Positions 20,349 to 60,194 of a DNA stretch of 64,000 nucleotides are shown one piece after another (position 1 is the first letter of the stretch; every line of letters starts with the position of its first letter). The notes beneath the pieces are model-generated. The model was not told the DNA's origin. It saw nothing but the letters and a program-made list of their open reading frames with translations, and did not search any database. The DNA is from Flavobacteriales bacterium (GTDB lineage Bacteria; Bacteroidota; Bacteroidia; Flavobacteriales_F; PHOS-HE28): the NCBI GenBank assembly GCA_023382455.1, contig JAHDVX010000010.1:6982-70981 (forward strand). Reading direction: 5' to 3'. A program made the translations under genes and the position numbers.

Positions 20349-20795
20349 TCAAGGAAAGCGGAAGAAGAAGAAATGCACGGCCACCCATTCGGGCGGCAGG
20401 CCGGGGGCGTAGCCCTGCGTGCTGCGGGAACCATCTTCCACGCGGCCATCATCGTGGATGTACCCGATGGTGCTGCGCGAGCTGTTCTCCACCCGCCATT
20501 CGCTGCCGCTCTTCTGCACATAGCCCACCGTGCTGCGCGAACTGTTCTCCACGCGGAAGGTCTCCCCGCCGGAATTCACGACATAGCCGATGGTGCTTCG
20601 CGAGGAATCCTCGATCCGCCAGCCGGAACCACTGGCCACGAAGTAGCCCACCGTGCTGCGCGAGGAGCTTTCGATGCGGCCGTCGGCATCGAGGTAGCCG
20701 ATGGTGGAGCGTGAACCGTCCTCGATCCGCTGCGCGCTGGCCGTGCAGGCCACACCGATGGCGGCCACCACGGCGACCAGCCAACCCCGGGTCAT
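20349..20795 (-). CDS. secreted six-repeat STxGY protein (beta-flower-like)
   Basis: 148 aa from the ATG at 20795. The open frame runs 24 codons further but overlaps the neighbouring gene, and this Met starts a proper signal peptide ending in ACTASAQ. The mature part is six repeats of ~17-20 residues with the pattern R-I/V-E-x-S-S-R-S-T-I/V-G-Y, separated by Gly/Asp-rich turns. This resembles the short repeats of Bacteroidota proteins named 5-fold beta-flower. No catalytic residue is apparent. It starts 7 bases after the stop of the Cys/Met-rich peptide gene, so the two probably form an operon. The C terminus is unusual (VAVHFFFFRFP). Confidence 0.72.
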   Translation of the reverse strand: MTRGWLVAVVAAIGVACTASAQRIEDGSRSTIGYLDADGRIESSSRSTVGYFVASGSGWRIEDSSRSTIGYVVNSGGETFRVENSSRSTVGYVQKSGSEWRVENSSRSTIGYIHDDGRVEDGSRSTQGYAPGLPPEWVAVHFFFFRFP

Positions 20796-20802
20796 CCGGC
20801 GA

Positions 20803-21072
20803 TCAGGGCTGAACGGCCGAGCTGTCGGCCAAGGCCGGTGCGGCGTGGTGGTCCATGGTGGAATCACCCTTCATGGAACAGCACTTGCCCTTCTTGCCCA
20901 TTTTGCACGCTTCGCCGCCGTTGCCGCCGTGCATCATGCACGCTTCACCGCGCATGCCGCCGGGGCCGCATTTGTCCGTGCCGCACCCCATGCCGCACAT
21001 ACGGCCAAGCACGAAGCCGAGGACCAGGAAGAGGAGGCTGAACAGGAGGATCTTCGCCCAATTGTTGTTCAT
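20803..21072 (-). CDS. small membrane-anchored Cys/Met/His-rich protein
   Basis: 89 aa. Residues 5-23 are one hydrophobic helix (WAKILLFSLLFLVLGFVLG) followed by RMCGMGCG. The tail has seven Cys, many Met and several His, with repeats GGxxGEAC and KCC. This composition suggests soft-metal binding (copper, silver or zinc) on the outer face of the inner membrane. That is an inference from composition, not from a named family. TACTTTCG lies 18 bases before the start, and the six-repeat protein follows in the same operon. Confidence 0.75.
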   Translation of the reverse strand: MNNNWAKILLFSLLFLVLGFVLGRMCGMGCGTDKCGPGGMRGEACMMHGGNGGEACKMGKKGKCCSMKGDSTMDHHAAPALADSSAVQP

Positions 21073-21090
21073 GGAAGGTTGATATGGCGC

Positions 21091-21098
21091 CGAAAGTA
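21091..21098 (-). promoter_or_regulatory. -7-like box TACTTTCG
   Basis: The minus strand reads TACTTTCG 18 bases upstream of the start at 21072. It would give a very short leader for the two-gene operon 21072-20349. Confidence 0.42.
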
Positions 21099-21210
21099 AA
21101 CCAGCGGTGCCCCATTCCGCGTGGCTGGATCATCCACGGACCTGCCAGCGGCGCAGATCATTCGGAAGGCCAACATGCCGGCATGCGCCACGCAAGGCTA
21201 TTTTTCCGGC

Positions 21211-23322
21211 ATGTTCCACCTGCGGCCCCTCCTGCTGGTCACGGCCCTGGTGATCGGCGTTGCGGTGGCCGGCCAGCAATCCGATGGCCGGGAAACGTAC
21301 ACCCGCCTGGACATGCCGCTGCTGCAAGGCAACAACACCAAGGTGCCGGGCATGGGCGAGGAAGTCCCGGGCCTTGCCTTGAGCAACTGGGGGAAAATGC
21401 GGCTGCTTGCCGGTGATGGCCCCGGGTCTGCGGACAGGGCGTTGGCGGACAGTGCTTGGGCCACGGATACCGATGACCTCGGCACACCGCCCGACAGCGT
21501 GTATTGGCTGCGCTTCCATTTCCTTCCCGTACCCGACCTGAAAGGGCGGATGCTGGCGCTGAACCTCGGCTCCGGGCACGCCCTGCTGGTCTTTCTCAAC
21601 GGCGACACCCTGTTCCGCTATGCCCCCGGCCACGCGGCGCCGGGTGCCCCTGCAGCACCACCCTTCACCATTCCCTTCAGTCTCCGCTGCGACGGGCAAC
21701 CGGAAGTCCTGGCCATCCGCTTGCAAGCGGCCGGGGCCGAACAGGTCGAAACATTCGTGAAATCGTCCTCGCTCCATTCCGCCGACATGGCGTACCGCTT
21801 CCAGCAGTACATGATGCAGTTCGGCATGTTCATCGGCGTGAACCTCATCATCCTGGTGCTCGCACTGGTGATCTGGCGTTCCGAGCCGGGCGATCGGCGT
21901 TGGTTGTACCTGGCCCTGCTCTCGGCCCTTTACATGGTGGACACCTTCCTGGATGTCGGCGGCTCGCGGGAGGCCTTGGGGTTCCCCGTCAGCGCGGTCA
22001 GGGTGTTGGAAGCCTTGCGCATCAGCCTGCTGCCATGGCCTTTCTACCTGCTGATCCTAACCTTGGGCAGCCTCCATGGGCAGATGAGCCCTCGGCGCAT
22101 GCGCTGGTACCACCTGGCGGTGGGCGTTGCGGCATTGGGCTGCATCGTGCTGGCGGTGATCATCCTCCTGTTCAGGCCAGTGGGTCAAGTGACGTTCTCC
22201 GTCCCCGACACGCCGACGGCCATCTGGGTGGTGCTGCTGGTGCTTGCCGTGATCCTGTCCATCCTGATCGCCGTGGCCATGGCCTGGTTCATGCTGGAAG
22301 TGGTGCGGCTTGGCCTGAAGCTGATGCGGACCCCGGGACATGCCCGCTGGGTGGGCGTTGGCGCCCTGGCTTCCAGCGTGGTGGCCTTCCTTTTCAACGC
22401 GATCGGCAATTCCGGCCTGCTCGGTGAAGGCCTGTCGAACGGGCTGGTCACCTTGGCCACCTATTGCTCCGGCATCGGCGTGCCGGTCTCCGTGGCCGTC
22501 TTCCTGGCCATCCGCACGGCCGACCACGGGAAGCTGGTGGCGCGCCAGCGCGACGTGCTCGATGCCGAGGTGAAGGAACGCACCGCCGAGCTGAGCCATG
22601 AGAAGGAACGCGCGGAGGAACTGCTGCTCAACATCCTGCCCGCGGAAGTGGCCGAGGAGCTGAAGAACACCGGCAAGGCACAGGCCCGCCACTTCGACCA
22701 GGTGTCGGTGCTCTTCACCGATTTCCAAGGCTTCACCAGCCTGTCCTCCAGCTTGCAACCGGAAGTGCTCCTGGACGAGCTCAACGCCTGCTTCGAGGGC
22801 TTCGACGCCATCATCACGCGCCGCGGCATCGAGAAGATCAAGACCATCGGCGACTCGTACATGTGCGCCACCGGCCTGAATGCCACCGGGAAGGACGCCC
22901 CCGCCAACCTGGTGTGGGCTGCGCTGGAGATGCAGGACTTCCTCGCCCGGCGCAAACGCACACGCGATGCGGCCGGGCTGCCCGGCTTCACCATGCGCGC
23001 CGGCATCCACACAGGCCCCGTGGTGGCGGGCATCGTGGGCGTGAAGAAGTTCCAGTACGACATCTGGGGCGATACCGTGAACACCGCCAGCCGCATGGAG
23101 AGCAACGGCGAGGTGGGCCGCGTGAACATCAGCGAGACCACGTATCTGCTGGTTCGGGATACGGTTGTCAGCTCACCGCTGCCAGGAGAGTCACAGACAA
23201 CGGACAACCCACCACTGACAACTGCTCCCGCCTTCGCCTTCACCCCCCGCGGAAACCTGCCCGTGAAGGGCAAGGGCGAGTTGGCGATGTACTTTGTCCG
23301 TAGGGCGAATGACGCAGGGTGA
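21211..23322 (+). CDS. 7TM class III adenylate cyclase
   Basis: 703 aa from the ATG at 21211, which starts a signal peptide (MFHLRPLLLVTALVIGVAVA). The frame is open from 21121, but the extra residues are not signal-like. Residues ~25-195 form an extracytoplasmic 7TMR-DISM-type sensor domain. About seven membrane helices follow (~205-445), then a coiled linker (VKERTAELSHEKERAEELL). The cyclase domain is at ~485-700. Metal-binding Asp504 (LFTDFQGF) and Asp548, Lys544 and Asp617 at the purine-selecting positions, and Asn624 and Arg628 are all present, so it should make cAMP. A 23-residue Ser/Pro/Thr insert near 650-675 is encoded by a 7-nt DNA repeat. TATTTTTC at 21199-21206 could be a near-leaderless promoter. 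Confidence 0.88.
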   Translation: MFHLRPLLLVTALVIGVAVAGQQSDGRETYTRLDMPLLQGNNTKVPGMGEEVPGLALSNWGKMRLLAGDGPGSADRALADSAWATDTDDLGTPPDSVYWLRFHFLPVPDLKGRMLALNLGSGHALLVFLNGDTLFRYAPGHAAPGAPAAPPFTIPFSLRCDGQPEVLAIRLQAAGAEQVETFVKSSSLHSADMAYRFQQYMMQFGMFIGVNLIILVLALVIWRSEPGDRRWLYLALLSALYMVDTFLDVGGSREALGFPVSAVRVLEALRISLLPWPFYLLILTLGSLHGQMSPRRMRWYHLAVGVAALGCIVLAVIILLFRPVGQVTFSVPDTPTAIWVVLLVLAVILSILIAVAMAWFMLEVVRLGLKLMRTPGHARWVGVGALASSVVAFLFNAIGNSGLLGEGLSNGLVTLATYCSGIGVPVSVAVFLAIRTADHGKLVARQRDVLDAEVKERTAELSHEKERAEELLLNILPAEVAEELKNTGKAQARHFDQVSVLFTDFQGFTSLSSSLQPEVLLDELNACFEGFDAIITRRGIEKIKTIGDSYMCATGLNATGKDAPANLVWAALEMQDFLARRKRTRDAAGLPGFTMRAGIHTGPVVAGIVGVKKFQYDIWGDTVNTASRMESNGEVGRVNISETTYLLVRDTVVSSPLPGESQTTDNPPLTTAPAFAFTPRGNLPVKGKGELAMYFVRRANDAG
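23164..23222. repeat. 7-nt-period ACAAC repeat with inverted ends inside the cyclase gene
   Basis: ACAAC occurs at 23197, 23204 and 23218, with a degenerate ACCAC at 23211, giving an exact 7-base period. GTTGTCAG (23164-23171) and CTGACAAC (23215-23222) form an inverted pair around it. The period is not a multiple of three, so the pattern belongs to the DNA and not to the protein. A related array is found at 60087-60194. Confidence 0.6.
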
Positions 23323-23335
23323 AGGACCACACCCT
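23316..23335. terminator. weak bidirectional hairpin between convergent genes
   Basis: AGGGTG (23316-23321) pairs with CACCCT (23330-23335) across an 8-base loop, spanning the stop of the cyclase and the stop of the SDR gene. The stem is only six pairs and there is no clear T run, so its strength is doubtful. Confidence 0.3.
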
Positions 23336-24110
23336 ATTGCTTGACGATGAAATTGCTATTGGCCTGTGCGGTGGGTGTCACCACCAGGTCGTTGATGCAC
23401 ACGTGCGGGGGCAGCGTGGCGGCGAACCACACCAGGTTGGCGATGTCCTCGCCGCGCAAGGGGGTGAGGCCCTGGTAGGGGGTCTTCGCCTTCTCGGTAT
23501 CGCCATGGAAGCGCACCACACTGAACTCCGTTTCGGCCAGCCCCGGCGCGATCTGCGTCACCTTGATGCCGTGGGGCAGCAGGTCCTGGCGCATGCCCTT
23601 GGTCAGCGCATCCACCGCGTGCTTGCTGGCGCAGTACACGTTGCCCTTCGGGTACACCTCCTTCCCGGCGGTGCTGCCGATGTTGATGATATGGCCCCCG
23701 GCCCGCGCGATCATGCCCGGGATCACCGCGCGGCTCACATGCAGCAGGCCCTTCACGTTGGTATCCAGCATGCGCTCCCAGTCGTCCAGCCGGCCGTCCT
23801 GGATGGGGTCCAGCCCCGCGGCCAGCCCGGCGTTGTTCACCAGCACGTCGATCGCCTGCCATTCCTGGGGCAGTGAGGCGATGGCGTGTACTACGGCATC
23901 GTATTCGCGCACATCGAAGTGGAGCACATGCACCACGGGGGGACCTTCCACTGTGCCGTGCAGGCCTTCCAACTCCTTGCGGAGGACTTCCAGGCGCTCC
24001 TTGCGGCGGCCGGTTATGATGACGCGCCAGCCTTCGGCGGCGAAGCGGCGTGCGGTGGCTTCGCCGAAGCCCGAGGTTGCGCCGGTGATGAGGATGGTCG
24101 AGGCAGGCAT
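23334..24110 (-). CDS. SDR-family oxidoreductase
   Basis: 258 aa, a classical short-chain dehydrogenase. The cofactor motif is TGATSGFG (9-16), and NNAG follows the fourth strand. The catalytic set includes Ser in NIGSTAG and Tyr/Lys in YCASK. GRRK after strand 2 suggests NADP preference. The closest functional analogues are YdfG-like 3-hydroxy acid dehydrogenases, but the substrate cannot be read. It starts 12 bases after the LytTR regulator gene on the same strand. It may be the last gene of that operon, although a TAAGTTCG box sits right at its start. Confidence 0.9.
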   Translation of the reverse strand: MPASTILITGATSGFGEATARRFAAEGWRVIITGRRKERLEVLRKELEGLHGTVEGPPVVHVLHFDVREYDAVVHAIASLPQEWQAIDVLVNNAGLAAGLDPIQDGRLDDWERMLDTNVKGLLHVSRAVIPGMIARAGGHIINIGSTAGKEVYPKGNVYCASKHAVDALTKGMRQDLLPHGIKVTQIAPGLAETEFSVVRFHGDTEKAKTPYQGLTPLRGEDIANLVWFAATLPPHVCINDLVVTPTAQANSNFIVKQ

Positions 24111-38964: not shown

Positions 38965-40182
38965 ATGCAACGCCAGCTCGCCCTTCTCGCCTGCACCGCA
39001 GCGCTCGTCCCCTTCGCATCCGCCCAGAGTTGCCTGCCCGAAGGCCTCGTCCTCACCTCCCAGGCCCAGGTGAACAGCTTCCCCACGGACCATCCGGGCT
39101 GCACCACCCTGGAGGGGAACCTGCAGATCGGGCCCGGCTCCGTCACCAACCTCGCGCCCCTGGCACAGCTCACCGCGGTGGAAGGCTACCTCCAGGTGGG
39201 GCTCAACCCGCAGCTCACCACCCTCGCCGGCCTGGAGAACATCACCAGCGTGGGGGGCAGCCTCGGCATCACCGGCAATGCCCAGCTTACCGACCTCAGC
39301 GGCCTGGCCGGCCTCACCACGGTGGGCGGCCTGATGGAGGTGAGCGCCAACAACAACCTCACCAGCCTCGCGGGCCTGCAGAACATCACCAGCGTGGGCA
39401 GCTACCTGGACATTTCGGACAGCCCGGGCCTTACCGACCTGCAGGGCCTGGAGGGGATCGAGACCATCAGCGGCTCGCTCATCATCCGCGACAACCCCGC
39501 ACTGGCCAGCATGCAGGGCCTGGCGCCCACCAGCATCGGCGGCGGCTTGGACCTGATGAACAACCCGCAGCTCATGGACCTGAGCGCCGCCGCAGGGCTC
39601 ACCTCGCTCGGCGGGCCCTTGTCGCTCAACGACAATACGGCCATCCTCAGCCTGCAGGAGCTCTCCGGCATCACGGCCATCAACGGCGTGCTCAGGGTCA
39701 TGGGCAGTTCGGGGCTCATGTCGCTCGACGGCCTGCAGAACATCGATCCCGCCACCATCCTCAACCTCATCATCGTGAACAACCCCGGGCTGTTCCAATG
39801 CGCGGCGGAGAACCTCTGCGACTACCTCGCCATCCCGGCCAGCATGGCCAACATCACGGGCAATGCCACCGGCTGCTCCTCGCGGGCCGAGGTGGAGGAG
39901 GCCTGCACCCTGCTGTCCGTGGAGGAGGGGATGCATATAGAGCCCGCCTTGAGCGTGTTCCCCAATCCCTCCAACGGTCTGGTGCATGTGCAGGTGGAAG
40001 GGCAGGGCAGCATGGAGCTCCGCGTGATCGATCTGAGCGGCCGCACCGCGCATGCCGAGCGCCTGGTGGCGACGGGCACATCCACCCATGTCATCGACCT
40101 GGCGCACTTGGCCACCGGCATCTACACCCTGCGCCTCGATCATTCGACCGGCTCGTTCACCACACGCCTTGTACACCACTAA
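38965..40182 (+). CDS. T9SS cargo protein with receptor-L/LRR-like repeats
   Basis: 405 aa from the ATG at 38965 (MQRQLALLACTAALVPFASA, signal peptide). The open frame starts 33 bases earlier and would overlap the previous stop, without improving the signal. Residues ~40-300 are repeats of ~23-24 residues with L-x-x-L-x-x-L and I-x-G-x-L-x-I patterns, for example LAGLENITSVGGSLGITGN. This is the solenoid of receptor L-domain/LRR-like surface proteins. The last ~80 residues (LSVFPNPSNGLV onward) are a type A sorting domain. It probably binds a ligand or surface by the solenoid. Confidence 0.85.
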   Translation: MQRQLALLACTAALVPFASAQSCLPEGLVLTSQAQVNSFPTDHPGCTTLEGNLQIGPGSVTNLAPLAQLTAVEGYLQVGLNPQLTTLAGLENITSVGGSLGITGNAQLTDLSGLAGLTTVGGLMEVSANNNLTSLAGLQNITSVGSYLDISDSPGLTDLQGLEGIETISGSLIIRDNPALASMQGLAPTSIGGGLDLMNNPQLMDLSAAAGLTSLGGPLSLNDNTAILSLQELSGITAINGVLRVMGSSGLMSLDGLQNIDPATILNLIIVNNPGLFQCAAENLCDYLAIPASMANITGNATGCSSRAEVEEACTLLSVEEGMHIEPALSVFPNPSNGLVHVQVEGQGSMELRVIDLSGRTAHAERLVATGTSTHVIDLAHLATGIYTLRLDHSTGSFTTRLVHH

Positions 40183-60013: not shown

Positions 60014-60086
60014 AACCAGGTGCGCAGGACTGAGTAGCGCATCGCCGAAGACCTGGACCCAGCGCATGCCTGCGGACCAACACCGG

Positions 60087-60194
60087 ACAACAAACAACGG
60101 GTTAGGCGGTGACACGCTACGCGTTGATGTGTTACGCATTGCGGGTTGGGGGAGCGCACTGGCAACGGCCAACCGACAACGAACAACCGTCAAC
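60087..60194. repeat. 7-nt-period ACAAC/TCAAC repeats in the aroA downstream gap
   Basis: ACAAC occurs at 60087 and 60094, then again at 60176 and 60183, with TCAAC at 60190. Each group has an exact 7-base period. The same pattern occurs at 23197-23222. Between them, 60104-60160 has several short inverted repeats. CCAGGT (60016-60021) with ACCTGG (60051-60056) is a possible hairpin after the aroA stop. Confidence 0.55.

Follow-up and report, generated by a model that had tools for sequence, protein, structure and literature searches.

Heptad hairpin repeats in one loop of class III cyclase genes and their probable repeated capture in frame

Short tandemly repeated heptanucleotides (STRR) of cyanobacteria occur as several heptad families within one genome, arranged in tandem arrays between genes. 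We know of no recurrent capture of STRR in one coding loop.

Rickettsia palindromic elements are described, in the portions of the reports that treat them, as families of short palindromic repeats standing in frame in unrelated genes, to which they add peptide; the elements are ~150 bp long and ten families are given for Rickettsia (PMC10969869; PMC3733652). Intragenic REPs, the GTAG/CGTC repeats of a 2013 report, are characterized there as small dispersed hairpins of several species, some of them in ORFs, and for recB different REPs are located at nearly the same position in two species of Xanthomonas (PMC3733652, in part). TAACTGA heptads are dispersed in Beggiatoaceae, cyanobacteria and five Bacteroidetes, with some copies in ORFs (MacGregor 2015, PMC4679880). 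In the accessible part of that report the arrays are direct, with one indirect repeat in the main genome, lie mostly just before start codons and are without evident mechanism, and the copies in ORFs are found mainly near protein ends (PMC4679880).

The DNA analysed here, henceforth referred to as the window, is a stretch of 64,000 nucleotides from a Flavobacteriales bacterium. It contains a cyclase gene in which a heptad repeat stands in frame. Comparison with the rest of the genome and with homologous genes indicates that hairpin repeats were probably captured in frame repeatedly at one permissive cyclase loop and were also copied between paralogues.

Host cyclase gene and window copy of the repeat

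The host gene scored 174 bits for Guanylate_cyc (PF00211), above the curated cut-off of 21.9, and solved structures were related to its product down to E 3.9e-55. Features are listed in Table 1. A reading made from the sequence alone had proposed an insert of 23 residues in this gene. The insert was recovered and its size was revised to 21 residues, because the loop measures 87 nt (29 codons) compared to exactly 24 nt (8 codons, without the insert) in 69 of 118 parsed domains in an alignment of the cyclase C terminus; other loops reach up to 156 nt. Placement of the insert between two strands did not hold, as the predicted model has a helix (180-186), then the insert, then a strand (213-223). 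Internally, the predicted cyclase structure is least confident at the insert, with pLDDT of ~58-61 over the stretch 191-210 versus 94-95 beside it.

Table 1 Features of the window and in-frame copies in other genes of the same analysis.
Feature	Position	Strand	Basis
Class III adenylate/guanylate cyclase gene, C-terminal catalytic domain	21121..23322	+	ORF 733 aa; Pfam Guanylate_cyc 3e-51, residues 522-726
Loop expanded to 87 nt, flanked by NISETTY and FAFTPRG	23146..23232	+	Comparison with 118 parsed homologous domains
Left arm remnant GTTGTCAG	23164..23171	+	Register by eye against intact copies
Right arm GACAACg GACAACc CACCACt GACAAC	23196..23222	+	Tandem Repeats Finder: period 7 at 23196-23224
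Second element with GACAAC heptads	60086..60194	+	Between two convergent ORFs
L070, HsdR-like C-terminal domain (EcoEI_R_C), in-frame repeat			Pfam
L082, MoaE, in-frame repeat			Pfam
L060, synthase, repeat in linker between carrier (PP-binding) and ketosynthase domains			Pfam

The proposed 7-base repeat is present: ACAAC starts at 23197, 23204 and 23218, all in register, position 23211 has the worn form ACCAC, and the lag-7 self-match of 23164-23222 (0.48) was reached by none of 2000 shuffles. The inverted ends, GTTGTCAG (23164-23171) and CTGACAAC (23215-23222), are exact. Heptads further left in the left arm are worn, and the Tandem Repeats Finder score of 30 lies exactly at the threshold. 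Folding of the window copy as DNA was no better than chance (z 0.17), and its self-complementarity beyond the 8-nt ends was equalled in 772 of 2000 shuffles. Since the window copy is weak alone, the case is built on the genome-wide family (119 places versus 8 for a control, below) and on the homologues. Together these identify 23164-23222 as an old, partly worn copy of a dispersed repeat of 7-nt period, standing in frame in the cyclase gene.

Genome G034 is ~99% identical to the window over 20496-23340, which includes the cyclase gene, and ~76% identical over 23396-24096, just behind the stop codon. Judged from these alignments, the two species (the window genome and G034) have recently exchanged the entire cyclase gene with its insert. 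A 9-nt tandem repeat, CTTGCCCAT, is located at 20884-20906, close to a site where G000 and G034 differ by 21 nt in length, and a minus-strand ORF at 20349-20867 encodes SSRSTIGY-type repeats of ~20 residues each. Elsewhere in the window, a 144-nt unit is repeated in 1.8 copies with 74% matches at 39214-39474; we take it to encode leucine-rich-type repeats. The convergent ORFs around the second heptad element, named from sequence, are presumably EPSP-synthase-like and LysM/glucosaminidase-like.

A dispersed family of heptad repeats

The genome search suggested with the original observation was positive. The doublet GACAACNGACAAC, with <=1 mismatch, was found at 119 partly overlapping places of the window genome, and the same pattern reversed at 8. 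Copies in the stretches fetched, which cover part of the 119 places, share one build of GTTGTCN heptads in the left arm, a core and NGACAAC heptads in the right arm. The order of left arm then right arm was kept in 8 of 8 two-armed clusters at the fetched own-genome loci, and the number of heptads differs between loci. Among the 15 GTTGTC inserts in cyclases, 9 had a GGNAGCC core; outside cyclases, the core was present in 11 of 66 overlapping stretches, these 11 coming from 5 loci. Intact copies fold as single-strand DNA, with z values of -6.3 and -3.8 (GTTGTC family) and -5.6 (GAATGG family); these three relatives are thus palindromic, hairpin DNA, which the window copy is not.

The lag-7 match was 0.54 for GTTGTC, 0.46 for GAATGG and 0.46 for GCAACC, with shuffle maxima of 0.29, 0.29 and 0.35, respectively. 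Self-complementarity was strong in the GTTGTC (23.7) and GAATGG (25.3) families versus ~9.5 when shuffled; GCAACC inserts are periodic, yet without self-complementarity (8.0 versus 9.0 shuffled).

GTTGTC-family triplets were detected in 24 of 45 genus genomes, at 0-78 places each, and the reversed control in 2; GAATGG triplets were likewise dispersed, being detected in 11 of the 45 genomes and their control in 1. The order-level genome set consists of the same 45 genomes, and nearly all genomes compared are metagenome assemblies. In a class-wide draw, a four-heptad pattern was found in 6 of 11 own-genus genomes (control 1 of 11) and in 3 of 284 genomes outside the genus versus 7 of 284 for the control, so that the pattern is not above control outside the genus.

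Local replication slippage inside the gene, independent of dispersed repeats, could in principle have produced the heptads. Heptad slippage was proposed by an earlier study cited in the accessible part of MacGregor 2015 (PMC4679880), and heptad numbers do vary between loci. This origin is scarcely tenable here: the loop contains the same arms and core as the dispersed copies, two families are found genome-wide, and local DNA would not yield identical families across genes and genomes, so dispersal refutes it.

Nine non-cyclase ORFs crossing repeat clusters were analysed with Pfam. Three of these, L070, L082 and L060, hold the repeat inside or between domains (Table 1); in L079 the repeat lies ahead of the first domain, the cluster in L083 is chance-like and four ORFs had no family. 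In-frame copies were also present in two cyclases, the window gene and L081. In-frame insertion was therefore found in several unrelated genes, the comparison with empty orthologues covering the cyclases. A GAATGG-family hairpin also lies, apparently in frame, in an unrelated ORF of another genome (L250, G001:C114, near 12369). We assume that this ORF is Mfd-like.

Y1 transposases are encoded in 33 of the 45 genus genomes. A RAYT/Y1 transposase was considered as the mover and rejected, as the seven Y1_Tnp matches of the window genome are not flanked by the repeat; among the six stretches containing them, a heptad cluster was present in one only, and it is the cyclase insert. Copy number correlated with transposase number over the 45 genomes for GTTGTC (Spearman 0.51, p 0.0003) and not for GAATGG (0.13, p 0.40), both values being uncorrected for relatedness. 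No target site duplication, a mark of MITEs, was apparent by eye at the fetched own-genome and cyclase copies.

One cyclase loop filled by several repeat families

Homologous domains were taken from the genus and from named genomes, giving 122 distinct domains of which 118 were parsed; the four left out include L202, which has a visible GAATGG insert. Among the named records, those closest to the window gene come from metagenome assemblies labelled Flavobacteriales or Bacteroidetes. Loops of 18-30 nt were classed as short. Genus membership of rows was assigned by shared DNA and, for L136, L164, L176, L190, L194 and L197, by assembly accession and contig coordinates; five of these six are absent as in-genus rows from an earlier same-genome pair count (21/25) and from the insert-identity, close-pair and 83-row-tree analyses.

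The loop was short in all 28 domains not matched to the genus. Within the genus it was longer in 43 of 90 domains and short in 47, fractions that are no census because the cyclase rows are part of the matches, picked for their similarity to the window protein. Of the 43 longer loops, 37 are filled by heptad repeats, some of them mixed or nested, which belong to three families (GTTGTC, GAATGG and GCAACC). GTTGTC/GACAAC and GAATGG/CCATTC inserts account for 15 rows each and GCAACC inserts for 4; one row has a mixed-family insert, two have a AGGCTGAGCC repeat nested in GTTGTC arms, and six have inserts of no recognised family. All insert families stand between identical anchors and enter within ~35 nt. 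The first arm starts 6-32 nt into the loop for GTTGTC, mostly at 6 or 18, and 6-38 nt into the loop for GAATGG, mostly at 6 or 24.

According to the sequence-only reading, capture of a DNA repeat would be contradicted by homologues in which unrelated DNA encodes a similar Ser/Pro insert. Such homologues exist, yet capture is not refuted by them, because their inserts are also repeats of 7-nt period and the GAATGG family is dispersed in genomes. In-frame capture agrees with the dispersal of the window family in its genome and with the absence of the repeat from most of the homologues compared.

Heptad doublets were present within the loop in 31 of 118 cyclase genes. Outside the loop, the 118 ORFs gave nine matches, seven of which are by coordinates the loop of a neighbouring paralogue; the other two are one worn match in an orthologue pair (L091/L121). 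This near confinement to the loop would also be expected if the long loop were under selection as a linker, variable and flexible, by which the cyclase is tuned or wired, the repeats being mere raw material. The insert peptides are polar and Ser/Pro/Thr-rich, and Ser occupies one left-arm position in 12 of 15 GTTGTC inserts (the Cys of the plain heptad in one), which are further points for selection. However, the GTTCTC heptad that encodes this Ser is also found in arrays elsewhere in the window genome, unrelated peptides replace one another, 47 of 90 in-genus genes keep the short loop, and MoaE, the HsdR-like domain and the synthase linker carry the same repeat. A selected linker is thus highly unlikely as the explanation.

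Filled loops are scattered over the gene tree. A tree of 83 rows, from which the loop and the preceding 30 codons were excluded, required 13 changes for GTTGTC, at least 12 of them forced by starred branches, and 12 for GAATGG, at least 9 of them so forced; the trees are quick and contain some long branches, and changes are gains or losses alike. A single origin on the gene tree was rejected for the GTTGTC rows (one clade, p-AU 1.1e-6) and for the GAATGG rows (p-AU 8e-64). With all labels taken jointly, the 118-row tree gave 41 changes versus 41.2 when shuffled, hardly any clustering, and the 83-row tree gave 36 versus 38.8, a value as low being reached in 9 of 200 shuffles. The proteins of L127 and L131 are identical at 311 of 331 residues (94%) and contain a GTTGTC and a GAATGG insert, respectively, while their close relatives have a short loop.

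Capture, copying between paralogues and known systems

Genomes whose cyclases hold a given family contain more non-cyclase copies of it (GTTGTC p 0.0004, GAATGG p 0.003; cyclase copies were subtracted, relatedness is uncorrected and the underlying counts may overlap). At least one non-cyclase copy was present in 18 of 20 genome-family pairs, G009 and G011 being the exceptions, and the family held was commoner outside cyclases than the other family in 14 of 20.

Filled loops of the same genome belonged to one family in 21 of 27 pairs, compared to a shuffle mean of 9.3, with 1 of 5000 shuffles as high; before L136 was reassigned the count was 21 of 25, with a shuffle mean of 8.6. Insert DNA in these 21 same-genome, same-family pairs is on average 90% identical and up to 99%. 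The five cyclase inserts of G021 match the query, itself taken from one of them, at 88-100% identity, and the best other 70-nt match in G021 reached 83%. These data could be explained by one capture per family, with nearly all later filled loops arising through gene conversion of C-terminal tracts and transfer of cyclase genes between species. The exchange of the window gene with G034 fits this account, as does the loop end PAF, which is common to filled loops (27 of 43) and infrequent in short ones (3 of 75, with PGL in 24 of 75). Agreement over the 8 codons that follow the loop is 0.68 among filled genes from different genomes and with different families, versus 0.51 among short genes; together with the PAF end this hints that flanks are shared and that independent entries were accordingly fewer.

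Flanking third positions were compared next to the insert. Same-genome pairs agreed at 0.75 before and 0.72 behind it, and pairs of other genome and family at 0.69 and 0.68; the second bin behind the insert was raised in same-genome pairs (0.75 versus 0.65). With near-identical inserts and flanks close to background, the shared part is essentially the insert and a little flank. Over the 30 codons before the loop, agreement by bin was 0.61-0.76 in 22 close pairs with different insert state and 0.71-0.85 in 11 with equal state. The deficit in pairs of different state is larger near the loop than at a distance from it, so part of the changes included flanking DNA; in L119/L151 the near flank was replaced (third positions 0.38 near the loop, 0.82 far), a point for conversion. 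In L127/L131 third positions agree at 0.78 within 30 codons before the loop versus 0.82 further away, and near the loop these genes differ almost solely in the insert. Long C-terminal gene conversion was rejected as the sole process, as flanking third positions hardly track the insert, even if some flanks did change. Against one capture per family with later conversion and transfer stand these flanks and the tracking of each genome's dispersed content by its cyclase family, and this account is possible, if unlikely. Because the repeat link within genomes argues for capture and the G021, PAF and flank evidence argues against pure capture, both processes are favoured, capture and copying of short tracts between paralogues. 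At L203, L204 and L205 (G015:C192, G040:C22 and G021:C96), cyclase paralogues share a contig and strand and lie near one another, an arrangement that would favour copying of inserts between them.

Under repeated capture with copying, a short hairpin repeat (about 60-75 nt) of the dispersed family, consisting of a GTTGTCN left arm, a core (GGNAGCC in many cyclase copies) and an NGACAAC right arm, would be inserted as an element, in frame, into a class III cyclase gene. The landing site would be the loop that follows the catalytic domain's last helix, used recurrently in the genus, and different heptad families would enter within ~35 nt in many cyclase genes. The family captured would usually be the commoner one in that genome. 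Inserts would also be copied between same-genome paralogues by short-tract recombination, as tracts barely longer than the insert. As 7 and 3 have no common factor, an arm reads as a peptide unit of 7 residues (21 nt), such as VVSSQLS, TTDNQQL or HSPTPIH, and open frames alone would survive. The product would be a flexible Ser/Pro/Thr-rich linker that the enzyme probably tolerates rather than uses.

The empty loop reads GTGAA ... TTCAC in several genes, a small inverted repeat that resembles GAATGG arms, and we speculate that capture might be primed by it. A stronger form, in which the loop is a true insertion port whose DNA (GTGAAGGA ... CCCGCATTCACC, with GTGAA/TTCAC as a small inverted repeat) serves as a recognition or priming site for machinery copying heptad hairpins, is quite doubtful. 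If true, unrelated hairpin families would be steered to one loop, and exchangeable flexible linkers would be continually refitted into one signalling enzyme family, genus-wide.

The cyclase loop is a replicated natural experiment in the turning of selfish DNA into protein, with one loop, many paralogues, unrelated families and relatives with a short loop. It makes testable whether small hairpin repeats are directed to a site or simply persist in places that the protein tolerates, and likewise the spread and between-gene copying of 7-nt repeats reported from several phyla. In the literature searched, no description of recurrent capture of several heptad families in one paralogue-family loop was found.

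Like STRR, the repeats described here include several heptad families within one genome. With the TAACTGA repeats they share the 7-nt unit, CAACTGA being one base away; unlike those in the accessible part of that report, they have inverted arms and in-frame copies inside domains. The window-family repeat was rejected as a TAACTGA direct array on its unit (CAACTGA / GACAACN) and inverted arms. They differ from REPs, as far as these are described in the source, in that no link to a RAYT-type transposase was found, in arms made of heptad arrays and in recurrence at the same site in many paralogues and genomes. The closest likeness by description is to Rickettsia palindromic elements, which are also palindromic repeats in frame in unrelated genes, and by this analogy the cyclase-loop repeat would work in the same way. 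Relative to these elements as described, the differences lie in 7-nt tandem arms and in the presence of several families in one loop of one paralogue family across many species. What is new relative to Rickettsia palindromic elements is the heptad build and the recurrent capture in the same loop.
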